A stretch of 64,000 nucleotides of DNA, from contig RPFO01001162.1 in assembly GCA_009746045.1 (NCBI GenBank), positions 900,478 to 964,477 on the forward strand, written 5' to 3'. Of this stretch, positions 12,922 through 51,251 are shown piece after piece. A model generated the notes under the pieces. The model saw only the letters and a list, made by a program, of their open reading frames with translations. It made no database searches and was not told the origin of the DNA. Origin of the DNA: Mesostigma viride. Its lineage: Eukaryota > Streptophyta > Mesostigmatophyceae > Mesostigmatales > Mesostigmataceae. Within the stretch, counting starts at the first letter, position 1; each line of letters begins with the position of its first letter. The position numbers were made by a program, and so were the translations under genes.

Positions 12922-12946
12922 GGCCGGGCCCACTTCGAATGTTCCG
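12922..12946 (+). repeat. Left terminal inverted repeat of the 38-kb element
   Basis: This 25-bp sequence beginning GGCCGGGCCC has its exact reverse complement at 51227-51251. It is followed by a two-copy 61-bp subterminal repeat (12951-13011, 13012-13072), each copy starting GTGTGACACTTTT and continuing CGTCGTTTTTTTAA. A related GTGTCACAC lies just inside the right end (about 51203-51211). Confidence 0.9.
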
Positions 12947-13359
12947 AAAAGTGTGACACTTTTCGTCGTTTTTTTAACTTCGTAACAAACTACCCTTTCC
13001 CGCCGGGCCGCGTGTGACACTTTTTGTCGTTTTTTTAATTTCGTGACTAACTACTCTTTCCCGTCGGTCCGCGTGCGCTTTTTGATTGCCTGCAGGTGGC
13101 ACGAAATTTTCGACCGGAGTGTTTCGGCATAACAAGTTTCTCGATACCCTGATGGATTGGTACAATCCTAGTCGACTAGAGGACCATGTTGAGAAGAGTT
13201 AATCGACGAAGCTAGTAGTACTTTCAACCATCAAATGGTGGGTATACCCACCCCCATAATTTTATTGAATCGATGAATAATGCAAATTTACACATTTGAC
13301 CAACGCAAAATGTTGCATGGAATTAATCATCGATTATATTTGCCAAATGGGACCGGCAT

Positions 13360-13832
13360 TCACTTTTCCTGGAGAAATGACCCCCATCCATCGATCTCAA
13401 TGTCACGAAACTTGTACGCTCCCTTGTACAAGTCCCCCACGAAATTTGGAGGCTCGTTGGAAAATTGTTTGGGGGCCCATACGGCCCCACCTATTTCCGC
13501 CGCATTCAAGAACTCATGCTGGGCCTCAGCCCGGAGGCGCACAGCCGAGACATTGGGCGAAATTTCCGTGCCCTCATTCTGGAGGCATTGCACCACCCTG
13601 GCCTTACCCGGAACACGGGGGGCAGGCGCCAAATCTGAATCTGGGGGCATCAGGTCGATCATCCCGTTTCCGAACGCAATGACACCTGAACCCCAACCTC
13701 CAAACGGTCCCCGCAGGGAGCGTGGGAAGTCGTGGGGGGGGAGTCGATTTCAACATACATGTTGGCCGCATGCTCCTTTTTATCGACATGCACATATGTA
13801 TGCTGCGAACCAAAAACATCGGCGCGCTCCAT
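13360..13832 (-). CDS. Short unknown gene next to the left TIR, one-base frameshift
   Basis: Reading the minus strand from ATG at 13832, an open frame starts MERADVFGSQ and reaches VEIDSPP, then shifts at a run of eight C (G on the given strand, 13734-13741). In the next frame it continues as PFGGWGSGVIAFGNGMIDLM, later AEAQHEFLNAAEIGG and KFRDIEIDGWGSFLQEK, to TGA at 13360-13362. One extra base in the run would give a single ORF of about 157 aa. There is no signal peptide or membrane segment, and I recognise no family. It lies between the left TIR and the transposase on the same strand, so it may be a second protein of the element. The start is the first ATG in the open frame; an upstream exon is possible. 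Confidence 0.5.
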
Positions 13833-14426
13833 CGTAAAAGTGAGTTTGATGGCTAAGTTGCGAGTGAGAAAATTATTTCAGCAAAGCCCGGTCCGGACTG
13901 TCGTATGGGTGGCGCTGCGGAGCGTCCCCTCTATTCCTTGTGGTTGTAGGGGACAACCTTCCAATCACAATTCGTAACTAGTCCGGTTACAAGCAAGGTA
14001 CTTTGGCACTTCCGGAGCGAATTTGTGTTTTAAGACATCTACCAAAGAGGCCTTAGTACAGTAACATTGTTGTGACATTCGAAATTAGTACGAACCAATT
14101 TGCAGACGGAAAGTCCTACACAGCAACTACATATTTGAGTGACGACATGATTTTTAGGTCAAACCAAATTATAAATTTGTAATTCGAAAAATTATTGTAC
14201 AAGTTAAATAAAATACTCGCCATTTCGACACGGAAATATACTAAAATTTGTCACTACCGAGGCTAACAATGTTCCCAGCCACTTGTCATCTAATGTAACA
14301 TATGAAAAAACAAAAAAATGTTCTCCAAAAATATATAAACACGAATAAACACTGTCCCAACCGTAGGCGAATAAAGCCCAGGCTTAAAGATCCGTAGGGG
14401 TGGCGCTGCGGAGCGTCCCCGAAAGT

Positions 14427-15170
14427 TTAAGCCGGTGGCAGCCCCTCCGGGGCTTGCTGGTTGCGTACAAGAGCGGTTAGCCACGCGTCAAGCTCCTTGC
14501 TCATATCAACGTAGGCTTGCCTTTGGTTGCCAAGGACCATGCACTGGAGCGGAAGAGCAGCGGAGATGCACAGATAGCAATCGACCAGGTCGGCTGGGCG
14601 GGACTCCGGCCAATCAGCCAAATCCAGAGTAAAATGCAGGGGGTCATGCATATCTCGCTTCCACAGCCGAACCGCCAGAACGGCGTGGCCGGGCAAGAAA
14701 ATCTCCTTCTGCCGTCCGTTTTGTCCCTCAACCCACCTAACCTCCTCCTTCTCCAGCACTGAGGCCTCCCTCACCACCTGCATCACCCAAAAAGGGTGGG
14801 CGGAATTGTGGTTCACGTCCTCTCTGTCTGACGGAACTGCGATGTAATCATACATGCGCATCTGCCTGCCAATGGCATCCCTTTGATCCTTCAGCAGTTC
14901 CGCCCGCGTCAGCTGGCGAACCGGAGGTATGGGCTGCGTTGGCGGCATCAGGCGGAAAGTTTTCATCGTTTGGCCCTCATCGTTAAATTCCTCGATATGT
15001 GTCCACTCGGTCCGGCACTCCTCCCACCTGTTAGCTAGGCAGGCTGGGCAGTAGCACGAAAAACGCCTCATCATCAGGAGCCCCGGGTCAGACTTGTCCA
15101 GGCGCCACCAGTGCGCTTGCTTGATGGCCTCGACACGCGTCGGTATCATACGGGCGCCGGAGTCGAGGTC
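14427..15170 (-). CDS. Transposase-like protein of the 38-kb element, last exon (C-terminal domain)
   Basis: This is exon 4 of the minus-strand gene, joined in phase 0 to the exon at 15408-16181 across a 237-bp intron (donor GTGCGA, acceptor TTGCAG). It encodes 247 residues that start DLDSGARMIPTR and end QQAPEGLPPA before TAA at 14427-14429. It contains CYCPACLANRWEEC (a possible zinc site), a basic/aromatic patch QMRMYDYIAVPSD, and no recognisable fold beyond that. The intron contains two copies of the palindromic motif (15240 and 15358 regions). Just beyond the stop, at 14398-14421, lies another palindrome GGTGGCGCTGCGGAGCGTCC. Confidence 0.7.
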   Translation of the reverse strand, partial: DLDSGARMIPTRVEAIKQAHWWRLDKSDPGLLMMRRFSCYCPACLANRWEECRTEWTHIEEFNDEGQTMKTFRLMPPTQPIPPVRQLTRAELLKDQRDAIGRQMRMYDYIAVPSDREDVNHNSAHPFWVMQVVREASVLEKEEVRWVEGQNGRQKEIFLPGHAVLAVRLWKRDMHDPLHFTLDLADWPESRPADLVDCYLCISAALPLQCMVLGNQRQAYVDMSKELDAWLTALVRNQQAPEGLPPA

Positions 15171-15407
15171 CTGCAATGAGGGAGAATGTCAGAAACGGAA
15201 AGTTGGTATGTGTCAATAGATCAAGTACACATGAAGGGTCACTCTGCAGAGATACCCCTTTGAAAGTGCTTTGCATGCATTTTTCACTATATAAGACGCT
15301 AATTCATACCAGTTCTTTTAGCATTATCAAATAATAAAATGCAAATGGGCAAAAGGTCACTCTGCAGAGATACCTCAATCAAGTTCAAGAAAAATTGAGT
15401 TTCGCAC

Positions 15408-16181
15408 CTCAGGAAAATGAAAGAAATGACGGTGGACGCCCTCTGCCCGAGCGCGGGCCGACTCCCTGCTCGTGGTTTTGCCTCCTTCCCAGCTGTCCCG
15501 CATGTACTTGACGATCTGGCGCCCTGTAACGATGCCCTGGTTCTCAGGAATGCATTGCATGTTCCTCACAATGCACTTGAACTTCGCTCCCTGACCATCC
15601 ACCTCCCCCTTCCCGTGCTGCTCACCCAAGTAGTGGTACTCGAAGGATTCCAAGTCGGGATCCTGCATGAGGAGGCGGAAGACGGCGTTAACCACGTACT
15701 TGGACTTGAACTGGGATGAGCAGTTGTCAGAGCACATGAACATCCTCTTCACCCCCACACCAAGTCCGCGCAGGGTTTCCATGATTGTCCTCAGCGCGTA
15801 GACGAGCGCCCGCTCTCCCCGCTTCATCTTGGCTTCCCCGAGAAAAAAGAACGTTCGCTTTGCCATCGCACCATTGTGCAAATATCGCACGATCATGGGC
15901 ATGAGGACAAAGCTCGTCTTGTGAAAGTACTGCGACTGCAGTTGGACGTAGTTGTTGTTCTCGTAATTCTCGGCCCAATCTCCATGCACGAGCACATCCC
16001 CCTCAGTCATGTTCCTCTCCCGGTCCTTGATCGTTGCCGACTGCCACCATGACGTAAAGCAGTGGTTGGTAAAGTCCTCCCAACTCTCGATAATCGCCAG
16101 CCTCAGCTGCGCGGGCGTTGACCTCATCGTTTCCTGTACGGGCCGCTTGACCTTCTCCGGGACCCGCCGATCGGTCGCGTC
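15408..16181 (-). CDS. Transposase-like protein, exon 3: probable DDE catalytic core
   Basis: 258 codons in phase 0 at both ends carry three spaced acidic motifs. These are VHGDWAENYENN (Asp at about residue 581 of the assembled protein), FMCSDNCSSQFKSKYV (about 665) and YLGEQHGKGEVDGQGAKFK (about 706-708). The same three-block order, DxAENY, then SDGxxxQYK, then SHGKGxxDGxGG, occurs in a widespread family of transposase-like proteins in animal and protist genomes, known to me only from those motifs. A DDE/RNase H-fold transposase is therefore the best reading; the exact superfamily is not settled. Upstream, STPAQLRLAIIESWEDF precedes the core. The gene is transcribed toward the left TIR. Confidence 0.7.
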
Positions 16182-16313: not shown

Positions 16314-17839
16314 CTCCCCTGCCGGTCGGGAAACCACTACCTCCTTCTTCACGTATCTGAACCAATTTAGTAGTTCTGTTGAATTCTTGTCCCGGTCACA
16401 CAACACCCAGTCTTTGATGCCACACCGGGACTCGGGACACGAGTTCTCCATACATGCCCTCTTCAGAATGCGAAAGACAGACCCCTCCTCCATGGATGGG
16501 TCCCCTACCCTTGGCACCCCTTCCTCATCCTCCACGATCCTCTCATTTATTTCAAGATCGTCAAGGTCTTGCCCCTGCCATTCATCTTCCGTCACATTAT
16601 TGTCCCCTTCCTCCTCTTCGTTTCTCGCCGAGTTTGCCCCACCCCCCAGCTCACTACCCCCATCCGCCTCCGCCACACGGCAATGGAAGTGCTTCACCCA
16701 TTCGGTCGTGTGCAGGCTTTCGAACATCCCGCACGTGCCGTCAGGCAATCTCGCCCTTAAACATCCCTCACACTCGTCGCCGCACTTGCAGTTCTTGCCG
16801 TGCTTCGCCTTGCAGTACCTAGTCCATGCCGCTACCTTCGACTGCATGACCGTATGCGTCTCACAGGCGCACACGTTTCTCTCCTTCCACTTCCCCTTGA
16901 CGGTTTTGGGGGCGTACTTGCAGAAAGTCGTATATCCGACATGGATGCCGACATCCTTCTCATACTGCGGACTTTTCTTGTCCCAGTACGTGTGCTCCGC
17001 TAAAAACTTGAGATATATGTCCTCCTTCGAGGTGAGGTAGAAGTAGGCCCCTTGGACACCAACCAAAATCGCACGATTGCCAACTCGTTCGTGCGTCTTT
17101 ATGGTATCCCTCTCTTGGGGCGAAGCGCGCGAGTTCTCCTCATCAGTCCAAGCCTGCGCGATCGACTCGATTACAAATTGGGGCAACTTCCTCTTCTTTC
17201 GCGCCAGCGCACGCGTCAGGAACTCCATCTTCTGTTGCTTTCTGATCGCCCGAACTTTGAGAATGGTCTTCGCGGGGACACCCGTCATTCTCTCCAACTC
17301 TGCCGCCGAAAACTCCTTCTCGATGTCGTCCCCACAAAAAAGAGTTGACACCAAAATGATCTTGACGTCTCTGTCATGGTCGGATTTCGACAGGTCGTCA
17401 AAAAGGGCGATCAGCCGAGCCACCCAAGACCTCGACAGTTGTGCAAGCCGCTGCTCATCAAAAAGCTTGGCCACCGGAATGTCAAAATGCTCCGCCTTGA
17501 GCTCGTCAGCCCTCTTATTGAAGCCATCAACAATCTCCTCAAAAGAGGCCCGCTTGGTAGATTCATTCCTCATGTGATGAACTACGTTGTACGCCTCATC
17601 AGCAAGATGAGTCCCCACAACAGACTTCTTCTCGGCGTACTGGCCAGGCCTTTTCGCTGGCTTCCTGACGGCGGGCGAGGTGCTGCGGTTCTCATTCCCG
17701 AAATTTCGTTTCGAGCTGTTTTTCAGATCCGCTGCAAGGGGCGTCGGTGTCCCGATGCTCAAGTTGTGGGCATTGAGTCGATTAGCAAAGCCGCCACGCA
17801 AGGAGGAGGAGGTTGGCGAAAGAAACACCCGTTCCCGTG
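16314..17839 (-). CDS. Transposase-like protein, exon 2: N-terminal region with cysteine cluster
   Basis: The exon spans 508 codons plus two bases of a split codon. The acceptor TTTCTGCAG precedes 17839 and the donor GTAAGC follows 16314. Notable parts are a basic N-terminal stretch (KRNFGNENRS, RKPAKRPGQY), a helical domain VAKLFDEQRLAQLSRSWVAR, a cysteine/histidine cluster with VCACETHTVM, KNCKCGDECEGCLRARLPDG and TCGMF, an acidic linker (NEEEEGDNN, DLDDLEINERIVEDEEG) and a second cysteine group CMENSCPESRCG. These look like DNA-binding zinc sites ahead of the catalytic core, which is the usual transposase layout. A 13-nt first exon ATGAGCCGGGAAG (18097-18109) matches the required phase but is a guess. 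Confidence 0.7.
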
Positions 17840-18096: not shown

Positions 18097-18109
18097 CTTC
18101 CCGGCTCAT
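18097..18109 (-). CDS. Possible 13-nt start exon of the transposase gene
   Basis: On the minus strand ATGAGCCGGGAAG is followed by GTGTGT. It supplies the one base of split codon that the exon at 17839 needs and gives an M-S-R-E-A-R-E-R start. The intervening 257-bp intron contains three copies of the palindromic motif, as other introns of this element do. Short exons are easy to find by chance, so confidence is low. Confidence 0.35.
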
Positions 18110-18180
18110 TTTTCAGGCGTGTCGTGTCGTTGCCGAGGTACCTGGATGATCACACCAAGACAGGAAAATACGTGAATTAA

Positions 18181-19306: not shown

Positions 19307-19494
19307 TGTCGAGCGTGATGTTTGTTGCTATGCCTTCAAATGGTCCGGTTAGTTTATAGCTAGCCCAATTCTAATCGTGGTCCTGTTCAATGCCGTTTTT
19401 CCCCCTTCCTGATTTATGCGTGCAGGTAAATGTGCAACGAACCCCTACTTACTCGCGCGAGCAGGGTGGCGTCTATGATGCCCTTTTGTAGTCC

Positions 19495-19989
19495 TCAGCC
19501 AGCGATATGGCTTGTTTTTTCGTGTTGGTCCTCAGCCAGCGACATGACTTCTTTTTTCTGGTTGGTTCTCGGCCAGCGATATGCCTTCTTTTTAAGGGTT
19601 GGTCCTCAGCCAGCGACATGGCTTCTTTTTTCGTGTTGGTCCTCAGCCAGCGATATGCCTTCTTTTTTAGGGTTGGTCCTCAGCCAGCAATATGTTTTCT
19701 TTTTTCGTGTTGGTCCTCAGCCAGCGACACGGCTTCTTTTTAAGGGTTGGTCCTCAGCGAGCGACCAGAGTATTTTTTCGTATTGGTCCTCTGCCAGCTA
19801 AATGTTTTCTTTTTTCGTGTTGGTCCTAAGCCAGCTAAATGTTTTCTTTTTTCGTGTTGGTCGTCAGCCAGCGATATGTTTTCTTTTTTCGTGTTGGTCG
19901 TCAGCCAGCGATATGTTTTCTTTTTTCGTGTTGGTCCTCAGCCAGCGATATGGCTTCTTTTTTCGTGTTGGTCCTCAGCCAGCGATATG
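19495..19989. repeat. 37-bp minisatellite, about 13-14 copies
   Basis: Units of 37 bp carry CCTCAGCCAGCGATATG and CTTCTTTTTTCGTGTTGG. Spacing of the AGCGAC/TATG motif is 37 (19501, 19538, 19575, 19612 and on). The period is not a multiple of 3, so the long hydrophobic ORFs that cross it are artefacts. Confidence 0.9.
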
Positions 19990-22711
19990 TCCACCACCAC
20001 CATCCATGCATGCCAGCACCCCACCACCATCATCCATGCGTGCCAGCCACCCACCACCACCATCCATGCGTGCCAGCCACCCACCACCACCATCCATGCA
20101 TGCCAGCACCCCACCACCATCATCCATGCATGCCAGCACCCCACCACCACCATCCATGCGTGCCAGCCACCCACCACCACCATCCATGCGTGCCAGCCAC
20201 CCACCACCACCATCCATGCATGCCAGCACCCCACCACCACCATCCATGCGTGCCAGCACCCACCACCACCATCCATGCATGCCAGCACCCCACCACCATC
20301 ATCCATGCATGCCAGCACCCCACCACCACCATCCATGCGTGCCAGCACCCCACCACCACCATCCATGCATGCCAGCCACCCACCACCATCATCCATGCGT
20401 GCCAGCCACCCACCACCACCATCCATGCGTGCCAGCACCCACCACCACCATCCATGCGTGCCAGCCACCCACCACCACCATCCATGCGTGCCAGCCACCC
20501 ACCACCACCATCCATGCGTGCCAGCCACCCACCACCACCATCCATGCGTGCCAGCCACCCACCACCACCATCCATGCATGCCAGCCACCCACCACCACCA
20601 TCCATGCATGCCAGCACCCCACCACCATCATCCATGCATGCCAGCCACCCACCACCACCATCCATGCATGCCAGCACCCCACCACCATCATCCATGCATG
20701 CCAGCACCCACCACCACCATCCATGCGTGCCAGCACCCACCACCACCATCCATGCATGCCAGCCACCCACCACCACCATCCATGCGTGCCAGCACCCACC
20801 ACCACCATCCATGCGTGCCAGCACCCACCACCACCATCCATGCGTGCCAGCCACCCACCACCACCATCCATGCATGCCAGCCACCCACCACCACCATCCA
20901 TGCATGCCAGCACCCCACCACCACCATCCATGCATGCCAGCACCCCACCACCATCATCCATGCGTGCCAGCACCCCACCACCACCATCCATGCATGCCAG
21001 CCACCCACCACCACCATCCATGCGTGCCAGCACCCCACCACCACCATCCATGCGTGCCAGCACCCCACCACCACCATCCATGCATGCCAGCCACCCACCA
21101 CCATCATCCATGCGTGCCAGCCACCCACCACCACCATCCATGCGTGCCAGCCACCCCACCACCATCATCCATGCGTGCCAGCCACCCACCACCACCATCC
21201 ATGCGTGCCAGCCACCCACCACCACCATCCATGCGTGCCAGCCACCCACCACCACCATCCATGCATGCCAGCCACCCACCACCACCATCCATGCATGCCA
21301 GCCACCCACCACCACCATCCATGCATGCCAGCACCCCACCACCATCATCCATGCGTGCCAGCCACCCACCACCACCATCCATGCGTGCCAGCACCCCACC
21401 ACCACCATCCATGCGTGCCAGCACCCCACCACCACCATCCATGCATGCCAGCCACCCACCACCACCATCCATGCGTGCCAGCACCCCACCACCACCATCC
21501 ATGCGTGCCAGCACCCCACCACCACCATCCATGCGTGCCAGCCACCCACCACCACCATCCATGCATGCCAGCCACCCACCACCACCATCCATGCGTGCCA
21601 GCACCCCACCACCACCATCCATGCGTGCCAGCCACCCACCACCACCATCCATGCATGCCAGCCACCCACCACCACCATCCATGCATGCCAGCACCCCACC
21701 ACCACCATCCATGCATGCCAGCACCCCACCACCACCATCCATGCATGCCAGCCACCCACCACCACCATCCATGCGTGCCAGCACCCCACCACCACCATCC
21801 ATGCGTGCCAGCACCCCACCACCACCATCCATGCATGCCAGCCACCCACCACCACCATCCATGCGTGCCAGCACCCCACCACCACCATCCATGCGTGCCA
21901 GCACCCCACCACCACCATCCATGCATGCCAGCCACCCACCACCACCATCCATGCATGCCAGCCACCCACCACCACCATCCATGCATGCCAGCACCCCACC
22001 ACCATCATCCATGCATGCCAGCACCCCACCACCATGATCCATGCGTGCCAGCACCCCACCACCACCATCCATGCATGCCAGCACCCCACCACCATCATCC
22101 ATGCATGCCAGCACCCCACCACCACCATCCATGCGTGCCAGCACCCCACCACCACCATCCATGCATGCCAGCCACCCACCACCACCATCCATGCGTGCCA
22201 GCACCCCACCACCACCATCCATGCGTGCCAGCACCCCACCACCACCATCCATGCGTGCCAGCACCCCACCACCACCATCCATGCATGCCAGCCACCCACC
22301 ACCACCATCCATGCATGCCAGCACCCCACCACCATCATCCATGCGTGCCAGCCACCCACCACCACCATCCATGCGTGCCAGCCACCCACCACCACCATCC
22401 ATGCATGCCAGCACCCCACCACCATCATCCATGCATGCCAGCACCCCACCACCACCATCCATGCGTGCCAGCACCCCACCACCACCATCCATGCATGCCA
22501 GCCACCCACCACCATCATCCATGCGTGCCAACCACCCACCACCACCATCCATGCGTGCCAGCCACCCACCACCACCATCCATGCGTGCCAGCCACCCACC
22601 ACCACCATCCATGCGTGCCAGCCACCCACCACCACCATCCATGCATGCCAGCACCCCACCACCATCATCCATGCATGCCAGCCACCCACCACCACCATCC
22701 ATGCATGCCAG
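19990..22711. repeat. 30-bp minisatellite, about 90 copies
   Basis: Units of 30 bp (some 29) alternate between CCATGCATGCCAGC and CCATGCGTGCCAGC, followed by ACCCCACCACCACCAT variants. The array is interrupted at 22711 by an inserted LINE and continues at 24695-25151. Several sequence variants are interspersed, as expected from amplification by unequal exchange. All three forward and three reverse frames stay open for hundreds of codons only because the unit is a triplet multiple without stops. Confidence 0.95.
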
Positions 22712-24694: not shown

Positions 24695-25151
24695 ATGCAT
24701 GCCAGCACCCCACCACCATCATCCATGCATGCCAGCACCCCACCACCACCATCCATGCGTGCCAGCACCCCACCACCACCATCCATGCATGCCAGCACCC
24801 CACCACCATCATCCATGCATGCCAGCACCCCACCACCACCATCCATGCGTGCCAGCACCCCACCACCACCATCCATGCATGCCAGCCACCCACCACCACC
24901 ATCCATGCGTGCCAGCACCCCACCACCACCATCCATGCGTGCCAGCACCCCACCACCACCATCCATGCATGCCAGCCACCCACCACCACCATCCATGCAT
25001 GCCAGCCACCCACCACCACCATCCATGCATGCCAGCCACCCACCACCATCATCCATGCGTGCCAGCCACCCACCACCACCATCCATGCGTGCCAGCCACC
25101 CACCACCACCATCCATGCCTGCCAGCCACCCACCACCACCATCCATGCGTG
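24695..25151. repeat. 30-bp minisatellite, right part (about 15 copies)
   Basis: This continues the array of 19990-22711 beyond the LINE, in the same phase after one copy of the duplicated ATGCATGCCAG. Confidence 0.95.
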
Positions 25152-25184
25152 ATTTTTTTGGGGAGTGGTTAGTATTGTTTTTGG

Positions 25185-25790
25185 GTAGGGTCGCTCTGCA
25201 GAGTGACCCCTACCCTTGCGCAATGTCGCAGTCTTTGTTTGTAAGGTCGCGCTGCAGAGTGACCCCCTCACAATGCAAACTTCCATTCAGTGTTTGTAGG
25301 GTCGCGCTGCAGAGTCACCTTTCCAAGATTCGTTATTCAATAACATTTTGTTGGTAGGGTCGCGCTGCAGAGTCACCTTTCCAAGATACGTTATTCAATA
25401 ACATTTTGTTTGTAGGGTCGCGCTGCAGAGTCACCTTTCCAAGATACGTTATTCAATCACATTTTGGTTGTAGGGTCGCGATGCAGAGTCACCCTTTCCG
25501 GATACGTTATTCAATAACATTTTGTTAATAGGGTAGCGCTGCAGAGTCACCTTTCCAAGATACGTTATTCAATCACATTTTGGTTGTAGGGTCGCGTTGC
25601 AGAGTCACCCTTTCCAGATACGTTATTCAATAACATTTTGTTTGTAGGGTAGTGCTGCAGAGTCACCCTTTCCAGATACGTTATTCAATAACATTTTGTT
25701 TGTAGGGTAGCGCTTCCGAGTGACCTTTCCAAGATACGTTATTCAATCACATTTGTGTTGTAAGGTCGCGCTGCCGAGTCACCCTTTCCA
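25185..25790. repeat. 58-bp satellite made of two palindromes per unit
   Basis: About ten units with 58-bp spacing (CTGCAGAGT at 25307, 25365, 25423, 25481, 25539 and on; the first three units at 25196, 25252 and 25307 are slightly shorter) contain GGGTCGCGCTGCAGAGTCAC and GTTATTCAATAAC. The first is the palindrome also found singly in most introns of the element. The array ends about 170 bp before the first recognised exon of the large gene, with one more degenerate palindrome at 25866-25888. It could be a protein-binding array (transposase or transcription factor) or amplified intron DNA. Confidence 0.9.
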
Positions 25791-33559: not shown

Positions 33560-33573
33560 GCGCGGGTGCGGCC

Positions 33574-38670: not shown

Positions 38671-38839
38671 GTGCGTTTTTGGTGATTTAGATTCAGAGGG
38701 GTAGCTCCGTGGAGTGACCCTTTTTACCTTCTGTGTTCTTAGCACCCTACTCTGAGATTTTCCTACGCTCGCGGACTATATGAATACGTTAAACTATTTA
38801 TTGCTTTCTTGTCTCATGTTCGTCAATGCCTTCGTTCAG

Positions 38840-40776: not shown

Positions 40777-41108
40777 GTAAGTGGTAGTTGTATCTATGGC
40801 AATGGTGACGCTGCAGTTCCACCACTTCGTCGTGTTATGTCGAGTAAGGGTCGCACTGTGGAGTGACCATGTCAAAAGTCTTCCTTTATCATGCATTATA
40901 AATGCGGGAAGTCGCACACAGAAACGACAATGGCAGTCAAACTCTCATCCCGACATATTTCTGGGGTGGTTTCGCAGAGTGACCCTAACTTACCGATTTC
41001 GGCGCTGAAGACCATTTTTCGCGCTCCCGTGCGTTCATAACGTCACGCTGCAAGTCGACCCTTGAATTGTTCTTGTGTGTCAATTTTTCGTTCCTCTGTT
41101 CGTGACAG

Positions 41109-43080
41109 GAGGTTGGGAAGAAGAAGCTGGATCGCCTATTCGAAATCTCCAAGGGCGCCAATGCCGAAGATCAGGCGGTAGCGGATCGGACGCTTGGGCA
41201 GGCGCTTCTGGATGTTTGGAATTACAACAGGCTGTACTTGCACGGCGTCGTGAAGCAGGGCAAAGGGCATTTTATTCCCGATGGCCATTACACGAACCTG
41301 CTGGCGTACATCCTGCCGGCCACCAAACAATCAGTCGGGAGGGAAGGGAGTTTGGAGGGGAGTAAGGAGGATAAGGGGGAGTTGAGGGAGGAAGAAGGCG
41401 AGCGGAAAAAAAACAAGGCCCAACCTTCCCAAATTTCAAATTACAATCGAGTTCTGGCGAACACCTTCCTGCGCCTCACAAAGGCCAGGCCGGATGATGA
41501 GAATGACGTCACACCAGCTTCTGAGGAGACTATGACTCTCAGATGCCGGTTCGCTAACGCCGAGGGCACCAAGAAGGGGCAAAAGGTGTCCTGGACGTCT
41601 GTAAGGAACCTGGCGTCGTTTCCGATGATGGACGCTGTGTGTGAATGCATCATGAGTGGGGAGGTTGGGCCCGAAAAGCTGTCAAAGTTGGTGGAGTTGG
41701 CCAAGGACGTACTTGAGTGCGTTCGCCAATTCATCCTTATTAAGTTTCAGGAAAAGCCCGACTTGGATGGCGAATGTAAGGGGGGGCTGATATGGAGTAC
41801 AAGGCTTCTCGCTTATTTGAAGAGGTGTTCGGCTTACGACTACTTGGGCGGATGCCAAGGAACAAGGACGTCGTCGATCGATTCCTTGCATTTTGGGAGA
41901 AGGCCGTCATCATCACGCGCAATGTCGCCTACCTCTTAAAGTCCGAAGGTCTTGCCAATCACCTAAGGATTCCGAGAAAGGATCTGATGGATAGCAAAAT
42001 CGATCTAGTGGATCTCCTCGACAAAACCGCTCCGAACTTCAGCATGAAGGGTTCGCACGGCCTTCTGGACAAGGACTTGTATCTCCACTATCAAAAAAAG
42101 ATGGAAGGAGGGGAAGGGAAGAAGGAGGCGGTTGTTGAGGCGAAGGAGAAAGTTGCAGGGAAAGGGGGGAGAAGGTGGAAGAGAAAAGTGCTGAGCCGAT
42201 TGAGTATAACTGGCGCAGCATTTCCTGGGATAAGATGACCGTCTGGTATTCTTCTCATAGTCTCCCTAAAGGCGGCCCTGACAGGAAGAAGGCATTTGTG
42301 AGGAGGGTGGCGGCGGAGGTGGCGGTGGGCGACGGTGAGGGCTTCCCATCCACTTTCGCGAGGCAAGACGATGGCCTGACGCCACTACCGTGCTGTAGAA
42401 TCCTGAATTTGGATGGTGAGTTCGGCCGCAAGTGGACGTCCTTCAAGGACTTCTGGTGGGGTGACCATGACCTCTTTATGGTTCCTCCAAAAAAGACAAC
42501 TGTCGAACGAGCTTCCGGTTACCACAGGAAGCTTATCGAGCTAGCGACGCAGTTTTTCGAGGAGTTGCGTCCCATCGTGGTCGTTTTTGGCGGAAAGAAG
42601 TCATTGGATGGCTTCGAAGACTTACTGGTTCGGATGGGGAAGATGCCTGACGTCTCGTGGACGTCATTGGCGAAGAAGAGGAAGGCTGAGGATGACGCGG
42701 AAGGAGATTCGGATGGGGACGAAGGAGGCGAGGGACAGGGAAAGGAAGGAGGGTCGACTCGCAGAGCGACGTCTACGGGGGGAGAGAAGTCGTCACCGCA
42801 GAAGACGTCTAAGGGGGGAGAGAAGTCGTCACCGCAGAAGACGTCTAAGGGGGGAGAGAAGTCGTCACCGCAGAAGACGCGGGACAAAGGGAAGGGTGGG
42901 CAGCGGCCGTCTGTCCAGCCGCAGCCGGAGTCACACCCTTCCAAAAAGCTTCGAAAGGCAGTTGTTCAAATCTCGGACGACGAAGATGAAGCTGAGCCTG
43001 GCGCTTCTGCCCGGCCTGTCGCTCCTTCCGCGCCTACGCGCGTTTCAAAGTATCCCAAGAAAGAGCTTCGAAGGCAGCCA
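41109..43080 (+). CDS. Giant cargo gene, penultimate exon, first part
   Basis: The exon begins after TTCGTGACAG. It reads EVGKKKLDRLFEISKGANAE, LDVWNYNRLYLHGVVKQGKG, MTLRCRFANAEGTKKGQKVS, ELAKDVLECVRQFILIKFQE, LLDKDLYLHYQKKMEGGEGK and RPIVVVFGGKKSLDGFEDLL. Three GGEKSSPQKTSK repeats near residues 550-590 follow, ending RVSKYPKKELRRQ. Two one-base deficits in G runs (41780-41786, 42164-42169) shift the frame; the duplicate copy at 6361 is open at both points. A 6.8-kb TIR element cuts the exon at 43080; it continues at 49889. Confidence 0.6.
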
Positions 43081-43092
43081 CACCGGGAAGGG

Positions 43093-43700
43093 GGGTGTGA
43101 CATTTTGTGATATTTTGTGACATATCACGTGACATTTTGTGATGTGGATGTGACAAAATGTGACACTTTGTGATTTTTTGTGACAAAACTGTGATATTCT
43201 GTGACATTTCGTGATAAATCATGTGATAAAACCAGCATATTCTGTGATTATCTTTGTGACAAAAACAAGGAATTTATCACAAAATATCAATGTCACGACT
43301 TGACAAAACGCACTGACAAAATCCGTGACATTATCACTGATATATCACGAAAAAAGGGTGACAAATCCGTGACATTATCACAAAAAAAAGGGTGACAAAT
43401 CCGTGACATTATCACGAAAAAAGGGTGACAAATCCGTGACATTATCACTGATATATCAGGAAAAAAAGGGTGACGAAATCCGTGACGTTATCACTGATAT
43501 ATCAGGAAAAAAAGGGTGACGAAATCCGTGACATTGTCACTGATATATCAGGAAAAAAAGGGTGACAAAGCCGTGACAATGTCACTGATAAATCTAGGGA
43601 GAAAACAGTGACATAAAACCACGGGCGATCATGACATATCACACAGATATATCGTGACATATCACACGGATATATCAGAACACATTCCAAAGCAAAACGG
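43093..43700. repeat. Left subterminal repeat cluster of the 6.8-kb element
   Basis: Dozens of TGTGACA, TGTGATA, TTTGTCAC and TATCAC words occur in both orientations. They include near-tandem units of about 50-60 bp containing AAAAAAGGGTGACAAATCCG and GTGACATTATCAC from about 43310 to 43600. A matching cluster lies at 49575-49875. This is the usual layout of transposase binding sites near element ends. Confidence 0.8.
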
Positions 43701-44254
43701 ATGAAAAGCACACCTCGCGATTTCTTTATTACAAATATAAAGATAAATGTAACAGATCTTCATTCTTCATTCTTGATTCTTCATTCTTCAACAGTGATTA
43801 TCGATCAGTGACAATTTGCAAACGCCGGCTTGGCGCTTGTCGTTGCGTGACAGAAATCTCAGAATGTTCCTGGAATGCAATAAAAAACGCACATGCGCAA
43901 GAAACATGAACGGATGGTTGGTGTCAGCTGTCTCATCTGCCACCGCACCCTAGAAAACCAATTCATGAACAAGAAAGCGCTCGATATAGATCAAGAAAAC
44001 AAAAACAAACCTGCGCAGCCGTGGCGCCTAGATGACGATGTTAAGTGGACGACGACGAGGAGGCCGGCACCTTGTCTCCCTGTGAGCAGAAAAAAAAAGG
44101 CAAGTTTGAACACTCAAGATTTGTCATAGCCTTTCACAGCCTCGATCAATAGAAATGTTGCACATCAAAATCAATGTGTTGCCTAGAACATCCTTGAATG
44201 GGTTTCAAGAACAGCAAGGCGGCCTCCCCCGCCCGCAAACTCATAATCCCAGTG

Positions 44255-44284
44255 TTTACAACCCCCTCATGAGGGGGTTGTAAA
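44255..44284. repeat. Perfect 30-bp palindrome
   Basis: TTTACAACCCCCTCA is directly followed by its reverse complement with no spacer. It is followed by an A-run (about 44300) and by short repeats of CCCAGTTTCCCACAG to about 44450. Confidence 0.85.
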
Positions 44285-44739
44285 ATTGCAATCAGTCATT
44301 AAAAAAAAAAAAAAATCCCAGTTTCACACACTGCCCACTCATAAATAATCCCAGTTTCCCACAGCCCCCACTCAGCCCACTCTGACATAAACCACCCCAG
44401 TTTAGACACCCCCTCTCATGAATAAGCCCAGTTTCCCACAGTCACCTGGGAGACCGCGCAACCTGGGGTCAGTCAGGTCAGTCACAGCCGGTGCGGCGCT
44501 AGATTACAATACCGGTCCGATGTAGTGTAGTGGGGTGGGTGGGGTGGGGGTGGGGTGGGGGAAGGGGGGGGGGGTTCCCCTCTCCTTTGGTGGGTGTCAA
44601 GGGGGACATTGGTAGGGGTTGATGATTTAGTAGTTGTGGAACGCAGTTGTAAATGTGGGTAGCTCGTGCGTAGGTCACAGGTTCTTGTGAGGGGTGGGGA
44701 TGCTTGGGTTGCCGTGGTGGCTTGCCTACGGTACGTAGG

Positions 44740-44928
44740 TGCCTGAATACAGTGGTGGGCAGGTGCACTTCGTGCACCCAGAGCAGGTGGCAGTTTACAT
44801 TCCCCCACCTGCAAGAAATAGCCAAGAGTGTATTAAAGGCCATATGCCCCTTCTCAGGGCTAAGTGCTACATATACTCCCAACGGAGTTATGTTCCTAAT
44901 TAATTAATTAATTAATTAATTAATTAAT
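44740..44928 (+). mobile_element. Very short LINE 3' end with 10-bp TSD
   Basis: The TSD GGTACGTAGG lies at 44730-44739 and 44929-44938. The insert has a stem GTGCACTTCGTGCAC, then GCCATATGCCCCTTCTC, ACTCCCAACGGAGTTATG and an (AATT)n tail. The same 3' UTR ends the split LINE at 53094. From 44930 to about 45500 the DNA is G-rich on this strand with no believable gene. Confidence 0.85.
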
Positions 44929-45599
44929 GGTACGTAGGCGGGCTTGGCGATGGTCTATGCAGCAGGGTCAGTTATGGTTGAGTGGACAAGGGGTTGGTTG
45001 CCCCGGAGGCCGGGGTGGGCGGGGTTGGTTATGGTTCACGTGGATGGTGGGGTGGAGTCATCGTATATTAGGGCAGCGGGGGGTGGGGTCACTGGGCGGG
45101 GTGCAATGGTGTAGGGGAACCTCGTTGTGGGGCGGTAGGGTGGTTTAGTGGATGGTTTGCGATGTTGGTGTGGAATGTGGTGGAGGTAATACGGAAGGGT
45201 GGTAGTCACATAGGTTGGCTAGGGGGACTCAAAAAGTGGATGGTCGGGTGGGTCAGCGTATGGTTTGGGAAGGAGGGCAGTGTATGGTTTGGGGAGGAGG
45301 GCGGTGTTACGGTGTTGTGGGGGACCTCAGGGTGGGGGCGAGAGTGGTCCGTAGTCAGGGGGGGATGGATAGCGGCATGTGGATGTCCGTAATGTATCTT
45401 TGTGGGTGGGGTGGGTATGGAACAGGCAGGGGAGTGGGGCGAGTGGGGGTTAGCAGGGTGGAGGGTGCTGGCATTGTGGCGGGATGGTTGGAGGCACATG
45501 GACACACATAATGGCAAGAGTAACTGCATGCATAGCAACATGGGACCAGCTGTTCCGAGAACATCTGCAACCCTCACCATGCAACAACCAACAGCAACC

Positions 45600-48500
45600 G
45601 GCAACTGCCAACAGTGACAACGTTCGCAAGATGTGACGCCAAGGCCATTGGAGATCCTGATGTAATTTCGGGGGGTTCCTAGTCCTGCCGTGTACTTAAC
45701 TTAATTCAGGGCCGCACACTTCGTGTGGTGCAGTGGTGCAGCGAGGGCTCATGGCCGGTATGGTGGTAGCCGGTAGGTGAAGACCTTGCTGCGAATCGAG
45801 GGCGTGATATTGCATGGGAAAATGATGCCGAGAGTCTCAGGGCGTCTCGCGTGGTGACAGCTGCAGCGTGTGGGCCGAGGAGCTCGAGATGCAGGTCTCG
45901 TCGGTACATGTGGGCCACTGGTGAGGGCGCCAATGTGATGGAGGCCTTTCCATCGTGCCAGTTGGACATCACTCAACAGCCAAAGGGGCGGCTGCATTGG
46001 CGGTGGGGCTAGAATTCTGGTAACTGCACAGAATTGACCCAAGAAAGCTCGAATCGCGGGCATGGGCAGGCGAGGTAAAAGAGGGAAACATTGCGCCAGC
46101 GGTTGAGGAAAGAAGGCCTGTTTACAGTGCTGGGCCTCAGAAGGAGTCGAGGCGTCGGCTCAGTTGGCAGGGCGACGATAAGTCTGTCAAAGCTGCGCAT
46201 GGGTGGCGCAATGAGAGCTCATTAGGAAGGTCTCGCGCAGGAGGTTTCGATAGGCTAAAATTTTTCTCAGTCCTCGAAGATTAGGCGGGTGAAAATCGTA
46301 AATCCGCCATAGCCGCCATTTAAAAAATTTTCCCGCTTTCCATGGGATATACTGCCTAGCCTTACAGTAGCCAAATGGATTTGCGTGCGCCTCAGTCCAT
46401 GCACCTAGTCGTTCGCCATCGGTTTCGGCGCAATATTTGAATTTTGCGCAAGGATCCTGACGGGTTGATTCCAGACTTGCGCTTGTTGCGAAAGATTATT
46501 GATTTATTTTGTCCATTCATTCCAGACTCCCAAGCTAGGGGCCGCCGTCGACTGTAGTCTGAACGGTACGGCTAACAGTTACGATGCCAGGCCAGCAGCA
46601 AGCGGTCAAAACCAAGCGATACTAGAGAGTCATGTCAGTCGTCTTTTTACTGGTTTCGTCAGTCAGTTATTCCTCATGTATGTCAAACTACTTCTACTTG
46701 GGAAGATATGTAGTAGCGGCGAATCGGAAGTGGACGTGGGCAGGGGGGGGCGGGAAGTACGACTGATGCAATATACCGTACGTTAGTTATCGTCACAAAG
46801 CGAGTGACTGACGATAGTAAAGGGCCTCTAATGACGACAGTGATGACGATAGTATTTGGCACTGATGAGTGATGACAGGAAGAGCGATGACCCCAAGTTA
46901 CCAGACTTTGCGACGTTGATGAGACTTAGCGAATTGCGAGCCCTCATTCCAGTGGTTGCGCGGGTGTTACCGTTGAAGTTGAAGAAAAAAAAACTTGACT
47001 TGAACATCTATCCACGCTGCACAGGTGGGAAAGGTGGAAGGGAGCTGCGATCGGCTCGCAGCCAAGGCGGGATTATGTGCCTTTTGATTTCCAGCAATGT
47101 CGCTTCTGTATGAACGCACGTGGTGGTTGGAATAGGAGCATAGGCTCACTGATGACCGTCGTGATTTATGTAGCCATTAGGGCGTCGTCTTAAATGAATT
47201 CAGGAGCGAGCTCGGACAAGGCTACAAGCAGCCATCGGGGGAGAAACATAGGCATGGTCTGGAATAAAGCTTTAATCGATCTGTTCGCTCAGTGGTAGGC
47301 ACAGCACATTCGGACATCCAGAAGCTGCCCACTCTTTACCAGTTGAGGTGAGCAAGGAATTCCTCGCCTGAAATTCTAATAAGTTTGCATCGACTTTAAC
47401 ATGCATGCCGTACGCACGTGGCATTCTCACGTATCGCCCTAGGGCCAAGGCTGCTATGGGCCGCTCGGTTTCATGCCAAGTTAGCCGTGCTTGCCATGAA
47501 TGCTGCAGCAGTTTCACTATCTCATTCGTACAAGGTCAATAGACTATGCAAACGACATCCGATTTAGTTTTCATGAAGGGCATAACCTTGTTCAGATTGA
47601 GAGTTGCATGGCATGGGCTGCTCTTGCGCCACTTTCCTTGTCTTAACCTACTGATTCTCTGTTTATGCTTTCGGTCGTTATACATTCGTATGTGTGCATC
47701 TGTGTTGCCATTGTGGTGTCAATTTTGCGCGTGTACTTGTGATGCCTGATACCGTTGGACTTGCACGCGGCCCCATCGCATGTGGCAGCGACAAGCTCTT
47801 GGTCGCCTGTCCAGCGCGGCGAATTCTTGATGGTGAGCAACGGTGATCATTCTTTATGTAGTGCTCATTCCTCAAATTATCAACGTGCTGTGCGTGTCAG
47901 CCACCATTGGCCTTGTTCTTCCAGCTTCCGTGCATGATTTTTTTGTAGCCCGCTGGTGATGCTCTGAGCTACAAATAGTTTGCATTATTTGTCCCAATTC
48001 CTTCGCTGTCGGTAGAATCTTCTTTGCAATCCAGTAGCCTTGGTTGACATTCGTGGCATTGCTGGACTATATCTCGCTTCCTTGCATGGGTAGCATCTTT
48101 GCATATTTATCCTTTTTGCTCAGATCACAGCTTTTTGTCATTCCCTCCCCCCCGCTCCCCACCCTGAACGACTCCTGCTAGTGTCAACTGCAGACGTAGA
48201 GCCTTCAGCCTCGTTAGAGTTCATCCTACCTGTAACGGGGCATATTGTTGGTTGATTGGCCTTGCATTTTCTTGGCACTATTCAGGCGTTTCTTTCTTAT
48301 TGCCGTATTAACCATACAGAGATTGCAATGAAGTAGATTGTGAGGCCTCTTGGCATGTTAGGGAACCTTTGCGACTCCAGGATTTCTGGGTGTGCAGTTC
48401 CCTACAACTTGTGAGGCATGTAGATACAATTTAGGTGAACATCTATGGCCAATTTTTTTTCTCGAGCACCCCTGTCTCTCTCTTGGCCCAGTATCTCACC

Positions 48501-49560
48501 TTTCTTTGTCCTAAAATTAGGCCGGTACTCATAGATAGCCACGCAACTGCTGCGATCTCCCCCGCATCCTTACATACAAGTGAACTGAAGTCATGCAAAG
48601 TTGTTGGCACGTCCAGCGCGTAGCGTTCATCTCACTAACAAATTTTTGTGTGTACCGATGCGTGCTTTGCCGGATGATGTATTTTTGTCTTGCATGCAGG
48701 CAATATACCTAACACAGTCGGGCCGGGCACATCCGTCAGTCCAACACGGCGAGAGGCCACATGCGGATGCAGATTTTGTAGGCTCTGAGCCTTCAATGGT
48801 CACATTGCCGTAGCACTTGACAGTGTCCTGTGATTGTTTCTAGAGAGTCATCCAGTTACTTCAGCAATGGTGGCTGGGACAGCCCTCGTGATGGTTTCGG
48901 TGATGATGAGGATGATGACTTTGATGACGAGGACTGTTGAGCCCCGTTGTACTTCTCGGTCAACAGATTTTATATTGCATTTGTGAGATGATTGTGGGTG
49001 TCCATTTTGCACACCACCCACAGCCATGCTTGAGTGCACCGTTCCTTGTGTGTGTATCAATACAGTTTGTGTTCGTATTTGATCAGTTGTGCCATTTCAT
49101 CGGGTTGTTGCATGCCATCTGAATATGTTCACTCCCCGTTGCCATTTTATCATACTAGTGTTGTGAGCTCAGAGCAATGGATGCATGATGCAGTGTTGTG
49201 ATTCAGTGTAGATATTGACGATTTTACCTTTGATCAGCATGATGGATGCTTGGCCAGCGATGGGTCGGAGGTTGACACTTGATGACCGTGATGATCATTG
49301 CCCTGAATGTTCAATATTGGTGTTTTTCTTAACATCCCAGTCGATATTTTTGCAATAAACCATGTCTCCCACGGCTCATGACATTGTGGTGCATTTTATC
49401 ATGCACCTGAGAGTGTTTCCAGCTTGTTTTGTCAGTTCCTTTCAGTACGCTTGCCCCGTACCGCTGCACGTGTTGTCTCTCCTGGCATTGCCACCTTGTC
49501 GTGTCCCACCTTGGCCTTTTCCTTCTCCGTCTCTGCTGCGGCACGCACTTCCTTGCTGCG
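45600..49560. other. Unassigned interior of the 6.8-kb element
   Basis: I find no recognisable domain in about 4 kb. The most protein-like stretch is on the minus strand at 47272-47534, reading EIVKLLQHSWQARLTWHETE, RYVRMPRAYGMHVKVDANLL and ending LCLPLSEQID. It has no good start and could be an exon of a captured gene or chance. The 47530-49350 part is TG-rich and resembles untranslated or intronic DNA. Confidence 0.4.
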
Positions 49561-49888
49561 GATGTGCATTATGCGTGCTTTGTGATATATCACTTCCCCT
49601 GAGTGGTTGTGATTTATCACCTTGTCACATTTTGTTTTTCTGTGGGTTTGTGACATTTTGTGACACTTTGACATTTTGTGATAGTGACGTTATCACAAAA
49701 TATGCTGGTTTTATCACGTTTGTCACGTTTTGTCACAATCATGACATGTCTCGATCACAATTTGTCACAGTTTTATCACATTTTGTCACATTTTGTCACG
49801 TTTTATCATTTTTTTATCACAAAATGTCACAAAAGTGACATTTTGTGATAAAAAAATATCACAAAATGTCACAGACCCCTTCCCGGTG

Positions 49889-50314
49889 CAGTCGAGTCAT
49901 CATCATCCTCCTCCTCCGAGGAGGAGGAGGAGGAGGGGGAGGAGGGGGAGGAGGGGACGAGGGGGAGGAGGGGGAGGAGGGGGAGGAGGGGGAGGAGGGG
50001 AGGAGGAGGAGGAGGAGGAGGAGGAGGAGGAGGAGGAGGCGGAGGAGGAGGAGGAGGAGGAGGAGGAGGAGGAGGAGGAGGAGGAGGAGGAGGAGGAGGA
50101 GGAGGGGAGGAGGAGGAGGACGGGGATGACGACGAGGAGGAGGAAGATGGAGGGAGGCGAAGGGGTGATGGAAGGGCAAGGGGTGGAGGGGCAGGAGGGT
50201 CAACTCGCAGAGCGACGTCTGAGGGGAGGAAGAAGCCTGCCGCGCCCTCCAAGTCTTCCGGCTCGTCTCGACCCAAGACAGCTGCTACTCGAGCTCCGAA
50301 AGGAATAACAAAGG
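49889..50314 (+). CDS. Giant cargo gene, penultimate exon, second part
   Basis: This resumes after the 6.8-kb element as VESSSSSS plus poly-glutamate from a GAG run (49915-50120). It then reads GDDDEEEEDGGRRRGDGRAR, STRRATSEGRKKPAAPSKSS and ATRAPKGITK, and ends at the donor GTGAGG (50315). It is an acidic-then-basic disordered tail. The run length makes the frame here uncertain. Confidence 0.55.
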
Positions 50315-50429
50315 GTGAGGAAATCGCTGTTTTGGTCGTGGCATGTATCCTGAATTTTTTTTAAATTCGTTTGCAATCTATCTACGTTGACTTTAGTCCG
50401 TCGTTGATGTGCCGATTGGTTACGCGCAG

Positions 50430-50961
50430 GTAATGATGTGGTGCGGGCGAACGCTGCGGTGGGCTTCGGTCCTGCAGCTAAACTTACTGCTCAGTCTGAA
50501 GGGGTGGAAGCGAATGCGCAGAGCCAAGAGCCTTATGAGAAGCCTACGCTGTGGATGAGACTTATGGACGGGGAACAGAAACACGGAGCACCGGAGTGCT
50601 TCTGGATTGATGGACGTGGGCCGAGAACACCATGAGAAGGGCCAATGCGAGTAGGGAAAAGCAAAAGTATACCAAGTTACAGGAGGTGAAGTTGTACGGG
50701 CAGGTAGGTGGATACGATCGGAAATGGAGGGACGTTTGCATGAAGTTTTTTCCAGAAGAGACAGAGGGCGGAAAGTTGCATCGGGGCAAGTTCTGGATGC
50801 CTTTGGACTATGTGAAGAAGGTGGTGACTCTGATGGACGGAAAGAGTTGGAATGATGTGGCAAAGTGGGCACCTGCGATGTCCATCGATCCAAAGAGGAA
50901 GAAGTCCAAAACAGAAGAGCAGAAATTGGAAGCAGAAGCAAGGAGCAAGAATAAGAAGTGA
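50430..50961 (+). CDS. Giant cargo gene, last exon
   Basis: The exon starts after TACGCGCAG at 50429 and completes the split codon of the preceding exon (K-G-NDVVRANAAVGFGP). It continues EKPTLWMRLMDGEQKHGAPE and CFWIDG, then needs one extra G at 50618-50620 to continue as AENTMRRANASREKQKY, YDRKWRDVCMKFFPEETEGG, HRGKFWMPLDYVKKVVTLMD and a lysine-rich end KSKTEEQKLEAEARSKNKK before TGA. The duplicate copy at 11480-11525 is in frame at this point. 290 bp of 3' flank separate the stop from the element end, with no other gene. Confidence 0.6.
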
Positions 50962-51226
50962 CGTTCGAAGACTTTATTTTATGTTGGACGAGTCTTTAGT
51001 AAATTCAGTCGACTCCGTCTCAAGTGCGACGAATGTATCCATGATATTCTTCAATGAAACAATGCAATTTCACGCTAATGTAAAGTTTTTATGTCACACG
51101 AGACTTACAATGAGATAAATACCCACAAATTGTAATATTTACGTGAAATTTATACGTTCGCAAGCCAAAATTCAAGATTTTTGCCTCAAAATTGAAGGAA
51201 AAGTGTCACACACTTGGCTTGGACCG

Positions 51227-51251
51227 CGGAACATTCGAAGTGGGCCCGGCC
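51227..51251 (-). repeat. Right terminal inverted repeat of the 38-kb element
   Basis: This is the exact reverse complement of 12922-12946. It is followed by TGCA (51252-51255) and then by LINE sequence continuous with 12581-12921. The truncated second copy ends with the same sequence (one mismatch) at 12157. Confidence 0.9.

Follow-up and report, generated by a model that had tools for sequence, protein, structure and literature searches.

A 38,330-bp element lies at positions 12922–51251 of the 64-kb window, the stretch of Mesostigma viride DNA that was analysed as a whole. Its ends are perfect 25-bp inverted repeats flanked on either side by TGCA (Table 1), and the chance expectation for such a pair of terminal inverted repeats (TIRs) in 64 kb is about 2e-6. 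The transposase gene is located near the left end, and a much larger gene, hereafter gene 2, is transcribed away from it toward the right end. Because TGCA is palindromic, the flanks by themselves would fit either a target site duplication (TSD) or four extra bases of the TIR. Three observations establish that a 25-bp TIR with a 4-bp TSD is correct: a paralogous repeat within the window has an empty insertion site with a single TGCA; among 40 scored left-end matches across the genome, 23 begin precisely on the first G of GGCC and the rest one to four bases earlier; and the flanking 4-mers vary from site to site. The perfect repeats bounded by TGCA of the original prediction were thus borne out. 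Internal to the left TIR is a tandem 61-bp repeat, whose motif GTGTGACACTTTT also occurs once near the right end. These subterminal repeats are candidate transposase binding sites.

Table 1 Features of the element and its surroundings in the window (positions are those of the window).
Feature	Positions	Strand	Remarks
Second copy, left part missing	6029–12157	+	Right terminus 12133–12157; interrupted at about 9718–11424
TSD, left copy	12918–12921		TGCA, 4 bp; one TGCA in paralogous empty site
Left TIR	12922–12946	+	25 bp
Left subterminal tandem repeat	12951–13075	+	61-bp unit, 2 copies, with GTGTGACACTTTT
Transposase exon 4	14427–15170	-	Stop codon; 0 differences in three other copies
Transposase exon 3	15408–16181	-	Candidate catalytic motifs HGDWAENY, SDNCSSQFKS, EQHGKGEVDG
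Transposase exon 2	16314–17839	-	Cys/His-rich stretch
Transposase exon 1	18097–18109	-	13 nt; start codon; splice sites inferred
Satellite arrays	19491–25798		37-, 30- and 58-bp units; interrupted at 22712–24694
Nested insertion, probably 5'-truncated LINE	22712–24694	+	(TTAA)n tail
Gene 2, first long coding exon	25959–27431	+	491 aa; S/P-rich, then K/E-rich
Gene 2, modelled exons	27591–29721	+	27591–27653, 27823–27894, 28046–29112, 29230–29283, 29399–29452, 29584–29721
Nested 8.1-kb insertion in gene 2 intron	29805–37862		Ends CCCCTAAATGG/CCATTTAGGGG; target TTAA
Gene 2, modelled exons	37918–39650	+	37918–38435, 38608–38670, 38840–39650 (last is first part of exon)
Nested LINE 3' piece	39651–40411	-	Interrupts gene 2 exon in window copy
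Gene 2, rest of interrupted exon	40412–40778	+	
Gene 2, long 3' exon	41109–43080	+	Continues at 49889 beyond insertion
Nested 6.8-kb insertion	43081–49888		Inverted ends CACCGGGAAGGGG; CA target duplication of 2 bp; splits gene 2 in window copy
Gene 2, resumed 3' part, and right subterminal region	49889–51226	+	Glu/Gly-rich repeat
Right TIR	51227–51251	-	25 bp
TSD, right copy	51252–51255		TGCA
Paralogous repeat with empty insertion site	53738–53990 (about)	-	One TGCA

The transposase gene was modelled with four exons encoding 1,018 aa, with inferred splice sites, and agrees with the prediction of one protein carrying transposase motifs. Its frame was intact in all four copies checked. The best Pfam match of the protein was DUF7869 (PF25273), with E values of 0.022–0.12 and 12–15 bits against a cut-off of 26. 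This weak match lies in register with the candidate catalytic motifs. We rejected DUF7869 as the family of the transposase, since the match was below the cut-off, absent in the sister family described below, and without support from hhalign, which gave a probability of 0.1% against the DUF7869 families of the same genome (narrow profile, Neff 2.3). A PDB search gave no meaningful match, and single-sequence AlphaFold modelling of catalytic exon 3 yielded a pLDDT of 37, too low for a usable fold. Pfam detected no rve domain in the whole transposase and no match to KDZ or EnSpm transposases, and no relatives were found in viral contigs with six exact peptide patterns or two motif patterns.

The coding exons of gene 2 were modelled from 25959 to 43080, with the last one resuming at 49889, and the charged product would have roughly 2,300 aa. 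One gene spanning 25 kb had been proposed; the modelled exons uphold this in part, and the satellites may be preceded by another, unproven exon. The gene 2 pieces scanned contained no recognisable Pfam domain; neither a ParB nor a DNA methyltransferase domain was among the hits. A phase change near 38,380 was common to all four gene 2 copies and is left unexplained by the exon model. Sequencing errors fit some places, where the copies differ, but not this one, where all four agree. An additional intron considered near 28.43 kb was rejected, as the frame is uninterrupted there in the other copies.

The element has been enlarged by insertions. A frame at 22895–24271 within the probable LINE reads as ORF1-like, and the 8.1-kb insertion holds an open frame (33484–37491) with RVT_1 and RING matches. 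Subtracting the four nested insertions listed in Table 1 from 38,330 bp leaves a core of about 20.7 kb with the satellites kept. Later insertions had been predicted and are present; the core of 17–18 kb proposed had the satellites subtracted as well. Nested insertions came close to doubling the length of the window element.

A second, truncated copy with the same terminus, also predicted, is real. When up to five mismatches were allowed, the only further match to the TIR in the window was the right terminus of this copy, with one mismatch, followed by GGTAGG. Its pieces at 6029–8296, 9095–9721, and 11421–12157 match parts of 40792–51251, corresponding to 40792–43076, 49918–50536, and 50533–51251 of the window element, respectively. 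The repeat at 4696–5355 was discarded as a part of this copy, because it matches the LINE piece privately inserted in the window element.

The family of the window element (family A) was surveyed in the 440-Mb source genome by exact matching of the TIR, with the reversed-pattern sequence as a control. The TIR occurred 130 times (60 + 70) and the control 0 times. Identical 4-bp TSDs flanked 28 of the 32 TIR pairs examined (12/13 + 16/19), a count in which at least one insertion is represented twice through a haplotig (C113/C526). Of these 28 pairs, 25 spanned 19.6–38.3 kb, and the longest measured 84.5 kb with a clean 4-bp duplication. The four pairs lacking a duplication included C2001, one of three whole copies compared. 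Pairing was incomplete, with 54 of the first 100 places listed falling in examined pairs and 46, many on short contigs, falling outside them. The search expected paired ends 15–40 kb apart with 4-bp duplications and found them, strongly supporting a repeated mobile family rather than a chance inverted repeat. Among 147 scored matches to the catalytic exon (haplotig contigs included), 58 were full-length at about 100% identity, and family A has apparently been active recently.

Both genes were found at consistent positions in the family. A transposase match lay inside 39 of 40 left ends, at a spacing of about 2.5 kb in 34 of the 39 (2.48–2.49 or 2.98–2.99 kb, depending on the strand, when measured from start coordinates), and a gene 2 match lay inside 34 of 40 right ends. 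All 43 transposase–gene 2 pairs within 50 kb of each other were oriented head to head. Gene 2 matches adjoined a right end and/or a transposase in 65 of 70 cases, leaving five with neither a transposase nor a listed end; 27 of the 70 had no scored transposase within 50 kb.

A sister family (family B), with different TIRs of 24 bp, has relatives of both genes, with 68% and 60% amino acid identity over the exons compared. The catalytic exons of the two transposases diverge by about 33%, but both retain the putative catalytic D residues of HGDW, SDNC, and VDG. In eight family B elements, matched by hand, both genes are head to head between their own TIRs, and 4-bp duplications were present at eight of ten TIR pairs. 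The dN/dS ratios between the two families were 0.24–0.30 for the transposase exons and 0.135 for the gene 2 exon, with dS near saturation.

Several known superfamilies differ from these elements. The piggyBac and Kolobok transposons duplicate TTAA, whereas the duplications here have no fixed sequence. The EnSpm/CACTA elements have CACTA-like termini and a 3-bp duplication, whereas the termini here begin with GGCCG and the duplication is 4 bp. MuDR and En/Spm combine a transposase with a second element-encoded protein, as here, but their transposases and TSD lengths are different and their second proteins much smaller. The TSD lengths and termini of KDZ/EnSpm elements likewise differ from 4 bp and GGCC, and Teratorn and Starships either contain many cargo or viral genes or use another recombinase. 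Academ was rejected as well: a gene 2 piece gave a RecQ_Zn_bind match with an E value of 0.015, below the cut-off, and no helicase was found in the frames scanned. Ginger is described with TG...CA termini, TIRs of 40–270 bp, and a Gypsy-like integrase (PMC10741241), whereas our element has GG...CC termini, a 25-bp TIR, and no rve match. The giant KDZ/EnSpm elements of algae are, in the account of PMC12477816, likewise DNA transposons of 10–30 kb that carry accessory genes and have received nested insertions. Teratorn (PMC6431247) and Starships also reach tens of kilobases or more; the present element has two conserved genes and nested insertions.

The closest published description is that of Sola, which has a DDD transposase, a 4-bp TSD, and TIRs of 11–1124 bp, most members being 2–9 kb and some over 15 kb (PMC10741241). 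The TSDs and the TIR lengths of families A and B agree with this description. Sola1-1_Ec32, a 21.5-kb Sola-1 element of the brown alga Ectocarpus, has an accessory gene opposite the transposase encoding a 1,104-aa protein with ParB-like and DNA methyltransferase domains, and the same paper describes nested insertions as frequent among its giant families (PMC12477816). It is quite possible, if somewhat short of probable, that our element is a giant Sola-1 member resembling Sola1-1_Ec32 but equipped with another accessory gene, given the 4-bp TSD, the TIRs, the possible three-aspartate order, the size above 15 kb, and the second gene on the opposite strand. An EsV-1-7 motif pointed to a brown alga as the probable host, as for the Ectocarpus element, though the DNA is recorded as that of Mesostigma viride. 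Gene 2 would be about twice the size of the Ectocarpus accessory gene by our model and yielded neither of its two domains, and the likeness to Sola is one of published description. The assignment would change the name of the family and is compatible with the mechanism proposed below. The original prediction that no named superfamily has this combination was therefore too strong. No description of the present element was found in the openly licensed PMC literature.

Gene 2 had been called cargo, and a captured host or viral gene hitch-hiking in the transposon would be consistent with its lack of transposase likeness and of known domains, as well as with the 22 of 70 gene 2 matches that lie close to an element end but away from any scored transposase. 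We consider such a capture very unlikely, as gene 2 holds the same position and orientation in two families whose transposases are about 33% apart. Since gene 2 stands head to head with the transposase gene in both of these diverged families and is under purifying selection, it looks integral to the element, and these sequence comparisons make it look like a conserved element gene rather than one picked up. Labelling an element gene as cargo on the strength of one copy can mislead. A virus-like integrating element of the Polinton/Maverick type, to which the size of 20–40 kb and the TIRs would be suited, is extremely improbable, as the frames scanned with Pfam contained neither a polymerase B nor a capsid, protease, or rve-type integrase, only two element genes were recognised, and viral contigs gave no match to the exact peptide or motif patterns.

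Taken together, the element is very probably a giant DNA transposon, autonomous or recently so, of the cut-and-paste type by analogy. The 1,018-aa protein would be a DDD/DDE transposase of the RNase H fold. It would bind the TIRs and the subterminal repeats, excise the element, and insert it into target DNA at positions staggered by 4 bp. The gene 2 protein may, less surely, act as an accessory transposition factor, for example by bridging or protecting distant ends or by countering host silencing. The element would grow through nested insertions of LINEs, other TIR elements, and satellites, and copies with an interrupted gene 2, such as that in the window, may be moved in trans. A further and rather unlikely reading is that families A and B together constitute a new superfamily of giant DNA transposons, or else a new lineage that branches deeply. 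In them, the transposase would depend on the huge second protein, which would perhaps unite ends 20–80 kb apart, so that large size is tolerated and nested insertions are carried as freight.

The distance separating the two ends is regarded as a constraint on giant DNA transposons (PMC6431247). The family in Mesostigma viride is mostly 20–38 kb long, has ends up to 84.5 kb apart, and has recently multiplied, as reflected in its 58 nearly identical catalytic exons. It thus raises the testable question of whether a large conserved second protein lets the transposase handle very long elements.

The perfect 25-bp terminal inverted repeats (TIRs) in the original prediction were exact at both ends of the transposon, with TGCA outside each arm; ~2e-6 perfect arm pairs would be expected by chance in 64 kb from base composition. 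TGCA is identical on both strands, so these flanks alone are ambiguous. The ambiguity was resolved by an empty site: the flanking repeat has a diverged paralogue in the window, which continues across the point of insertion and contains TGCA once there; the window copy therefore landed in a repeat, and a 4-bp target was duplicated. The left end contains two copies of GTGTGACACTTTT and the right end one, and the TIRs and these subterminal sites may be bound by the transposase.

The family of this copy (family A) was examined in the 440-Mb source assembly of 2,243 contigs, where the window lies within contig C2134. First-look candidates numbered 386 for a 283-bp left-end query and 399 for a right-end one; 40 of each were scored, all at 99–100% identity, and 23 of the 40 left-end matches had the first G of GGCC as their exact start. 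The exact 25-mer TIR occurred 60 times forward and 70 times reverse genome-wide (0 for its reversed control). Ends in convergent orientation on one contig gave 13 pairs from the end searches and 19 more from the first 100 TIR places listed, of which 54 lay in examined pairs and 46 outside them. Identical 4-bp flanks were found in 12 of 13 and 16 of 19 pairs, 28 of 32 in total, although contigs C113 and C526 hold one insertion, making the independent sites at least one fewer than the pairs counted. The 28 duplications had no consensus. Spans were 19.6–38.3 kb in 25 of them and 51.7, 61.2, and 84.5 kb in the other three, the last two (G000 C1580:1600037-1661199 and G000 C557:352460-436991, respectively) having intact duplications and matches to both genes inside. 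The pairs without matching flanks were at C2001, C1:2457890, C442, and C1468:184867; the last, with ends 136 kb apart, is probably not a single element.

Four blocks of the window copy were missing from three whole copies (C1413, 21.9 kb; C87, 24.7 kb; C2001, 20.3 kb). Without these blocks the window copy is ~20.7 kb and mostly collinear with the three, the departures being insertions private to other copies and satellite arrays of variable size. Two nested insertions share the ends CCCCTAAATGG/CCATTTAGGGG, have TTAA and TTAT duplications, and represent an additional TIR family whose target is TTAN-like. A 6.8-kb insertion, flanked by a 2-bp duplication (CA), has long imperfect inverted ends with CACCGGGAAGGGG and TGTGACATTTTGTGATATTTT repeats, and no Pfam match above the cut-off was found in the few frames scanned. 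Of the young LINE 3' pieces, two that lie in opposite orientation match at 100% over 770 bp. The window copy and the truncated second copy of the element are perfectly identical over long stretches, between which lie clusters of short substitutions and numerous short indels; this unusual pattern resembles local scars or conversion tracts.

Coordinates of features in and around the window copy
Feature	Position	Strand	Remark
TIR arms	12922-12946, 51227-51251		TGCA outside each
Empty-site paralogue	~53738-53990	minus	single TGCA
Transposase (left gene)		minus	1,018-aa spliced frame
Catalytic exon (exon 3)	15408..16181	minus
Gene 2	25959 to 43080, resumes 49889	plus	eleven modelled coding exons
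Blocks missing from three copies	22712-24694, 29805-37862, 39651-40411, 43081-49888
CCCCTAAATGG/CCATTTAGGGG insertions	29805-37862, 9718-11424		longer one: RVT_1 + RING open frame
6.8-kb insertion	43081-49888
LINE 3' pieces	22895-24271, 23927-24696, 39650-40419, 4699-5355		(TTAA)n tails
Two element copies compared	6029-8296, 40792-43076
GGTCRCTCTGCAGAGTGACC-like motif (example)	27523-27546		intronic
58-bp satellite	~25185-25798		contains GGTCRCTCTGCAGAGTGACC-like motif

The transposase frame was uninterrupted in all four copies compared, with 0, 1, and 0 amino acid differences in the other three. The catalytic exon, used as a protein query, gave 727 candidates; among the 147 scored, 58 were full-length at ~100% identity, seven were partial or slightly diverged (94–100%), and 82 were at 68%, the last representing a sister family (family B). 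The motifs HGDWAENY, SDNC..QFKS, and GEQHGKGEVDGQGAK are conserved between A and B, in an order that we take to fit a D-D-D/E RNase H transposase. In Pfam, the whole protein matched DUF7869 and TniQ alone, both under the cut-off. Strong DUF7869 matches are numerous in the genome, at least 150 (all of the 150 scored exceeded the cut-off); they comprise several families, many in open frames >1,000 aa, and are perhaps other transposase families. Six aligned matches carried DGGSENxN or DGGGDNMN, plus GHTHxDxDQxFG; a comparison of the transposase with these six, using a narrow profile, was negative. The name DUF7869 was absent from the openly licensed PMC papers searched.

One B transposase copy shared 51%, 67%, and 60% identity with A over three long pieces. 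The B element has a sharp edge and a TIR, GGGTGGTCCCACGCGGAATG, with only partial resemblance to that of A (188 + 176 occurrences; control 0). Many B end pairs among the listed places spanned 16–35 kb and some were wider, and 4-bp duplications flanked eight of ten examined. Two of these ten belong to a compact class with TIRs 10.3–10.7 kb apart (G000 C36, C69, C80, C280, C335, C429), perhaps non-autonomous derivatives.

The original prediction regarded gene 2 as cargo. Its exon query gave 789 candidates, and of the 144 scored, 70 were assigned to A and nearly all others were at 59–62% identity. Transposase matches lay inside 39 of 40 A left ends and gene-2 matches inside 34 of 40 right ends. 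A scored transposase lay within 50 kb of 43 of the 70 A gene-2 matches, head to head in every case; 65 were tied to an element by transposase and/or end, and five had no such tie among the TIR places listed, three of them being on contigs outside these places. In eight B elements (C1, C110, C310, C407, C224 twice, C557, C2), matched by hand from coordinates and not a systematic count, the two genes lie divergently within the TIRs. Between A and B, transposase exons had dN/dS values of 0.26, 0.30, and 0.24 (Nei-Gojobori, computed with a custom script from a single copy per family); the value for the gene-2 exon was 0.135, at a dS of 2.4, near saturation. Casual cargo is poorly compatible with a gene pair common to two families, its orientation, and these dN/dS values.

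By the exon model, the predicted gene 2 protein would be roughly 2,300 aa and highly charged, with some parts rich in S/P and others in Glu/Gly. In the window copy the gene is broken by a LINE piece and the 6.8-kb element and carries small indels not shared by some of the other copies. At ~38380, the phase changes at a G run between the upstream protein-like frame and the downstream frame in all four copies compared, which could reflect alternative splicing, a frameshift, or an error in the exon model. A near-palindromic GGTCRCTCTGCAGAGTGACC-like motif, repeated in introns of both genes, could be introner-like.

Assignments to Ginger, piggyBac-like, CACTA, and Polinton elements each fail on a tested feature, for Polinton in the frames scanned with Pfam. 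Sola was the best fit by hallmarks, compared by description only: one account defines it by a DDD transposase, 4-bp duplications, TIRs, and sizes mostly of 2–9 kb, some >15 kb (PMC10741241). Giant KDZ, EnSpm, and Sola-1 elements of Ectocarpus are described as generally >10 kb and at times >30 kb, with nested insertions; Sola1-1_Ec32 (21.5 kb) encodes a ParB-methyltransferase protein by an opposite-strand gene (PMC12477816). The EsV-1-7 motif was over the cut-off in all 150 scored matches (best 150 of 500 candidates) in the host genome and in none of 14 control genomes. The domain has reportedly proliferated in brown algae, and elsewhere it is chiefly known from giant viruses (PMC12477816). Because of its abundance here and its proliferation in brown algae, the host is likely a brown alga.

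Family A inserts with a 4-bp duplication, has near-identical copies, and keeps an intact transposase frame and a conserved gene pair. The transposase would act by DDE chemistry, with cut-and-paste movement, and gene 2 might, as a guess, be an accessory factor that serves long elements or counters silencing. Copies in which gene 2 is broken, such as the window copy, might be moved in trans, or the gene might have been broken after landing. This is a real family of giant transposons that has recently multiplied and whose two genes are conserved; it is a variant among known transposon kinds, unless its transposase proves unrelated to Sola and the others.
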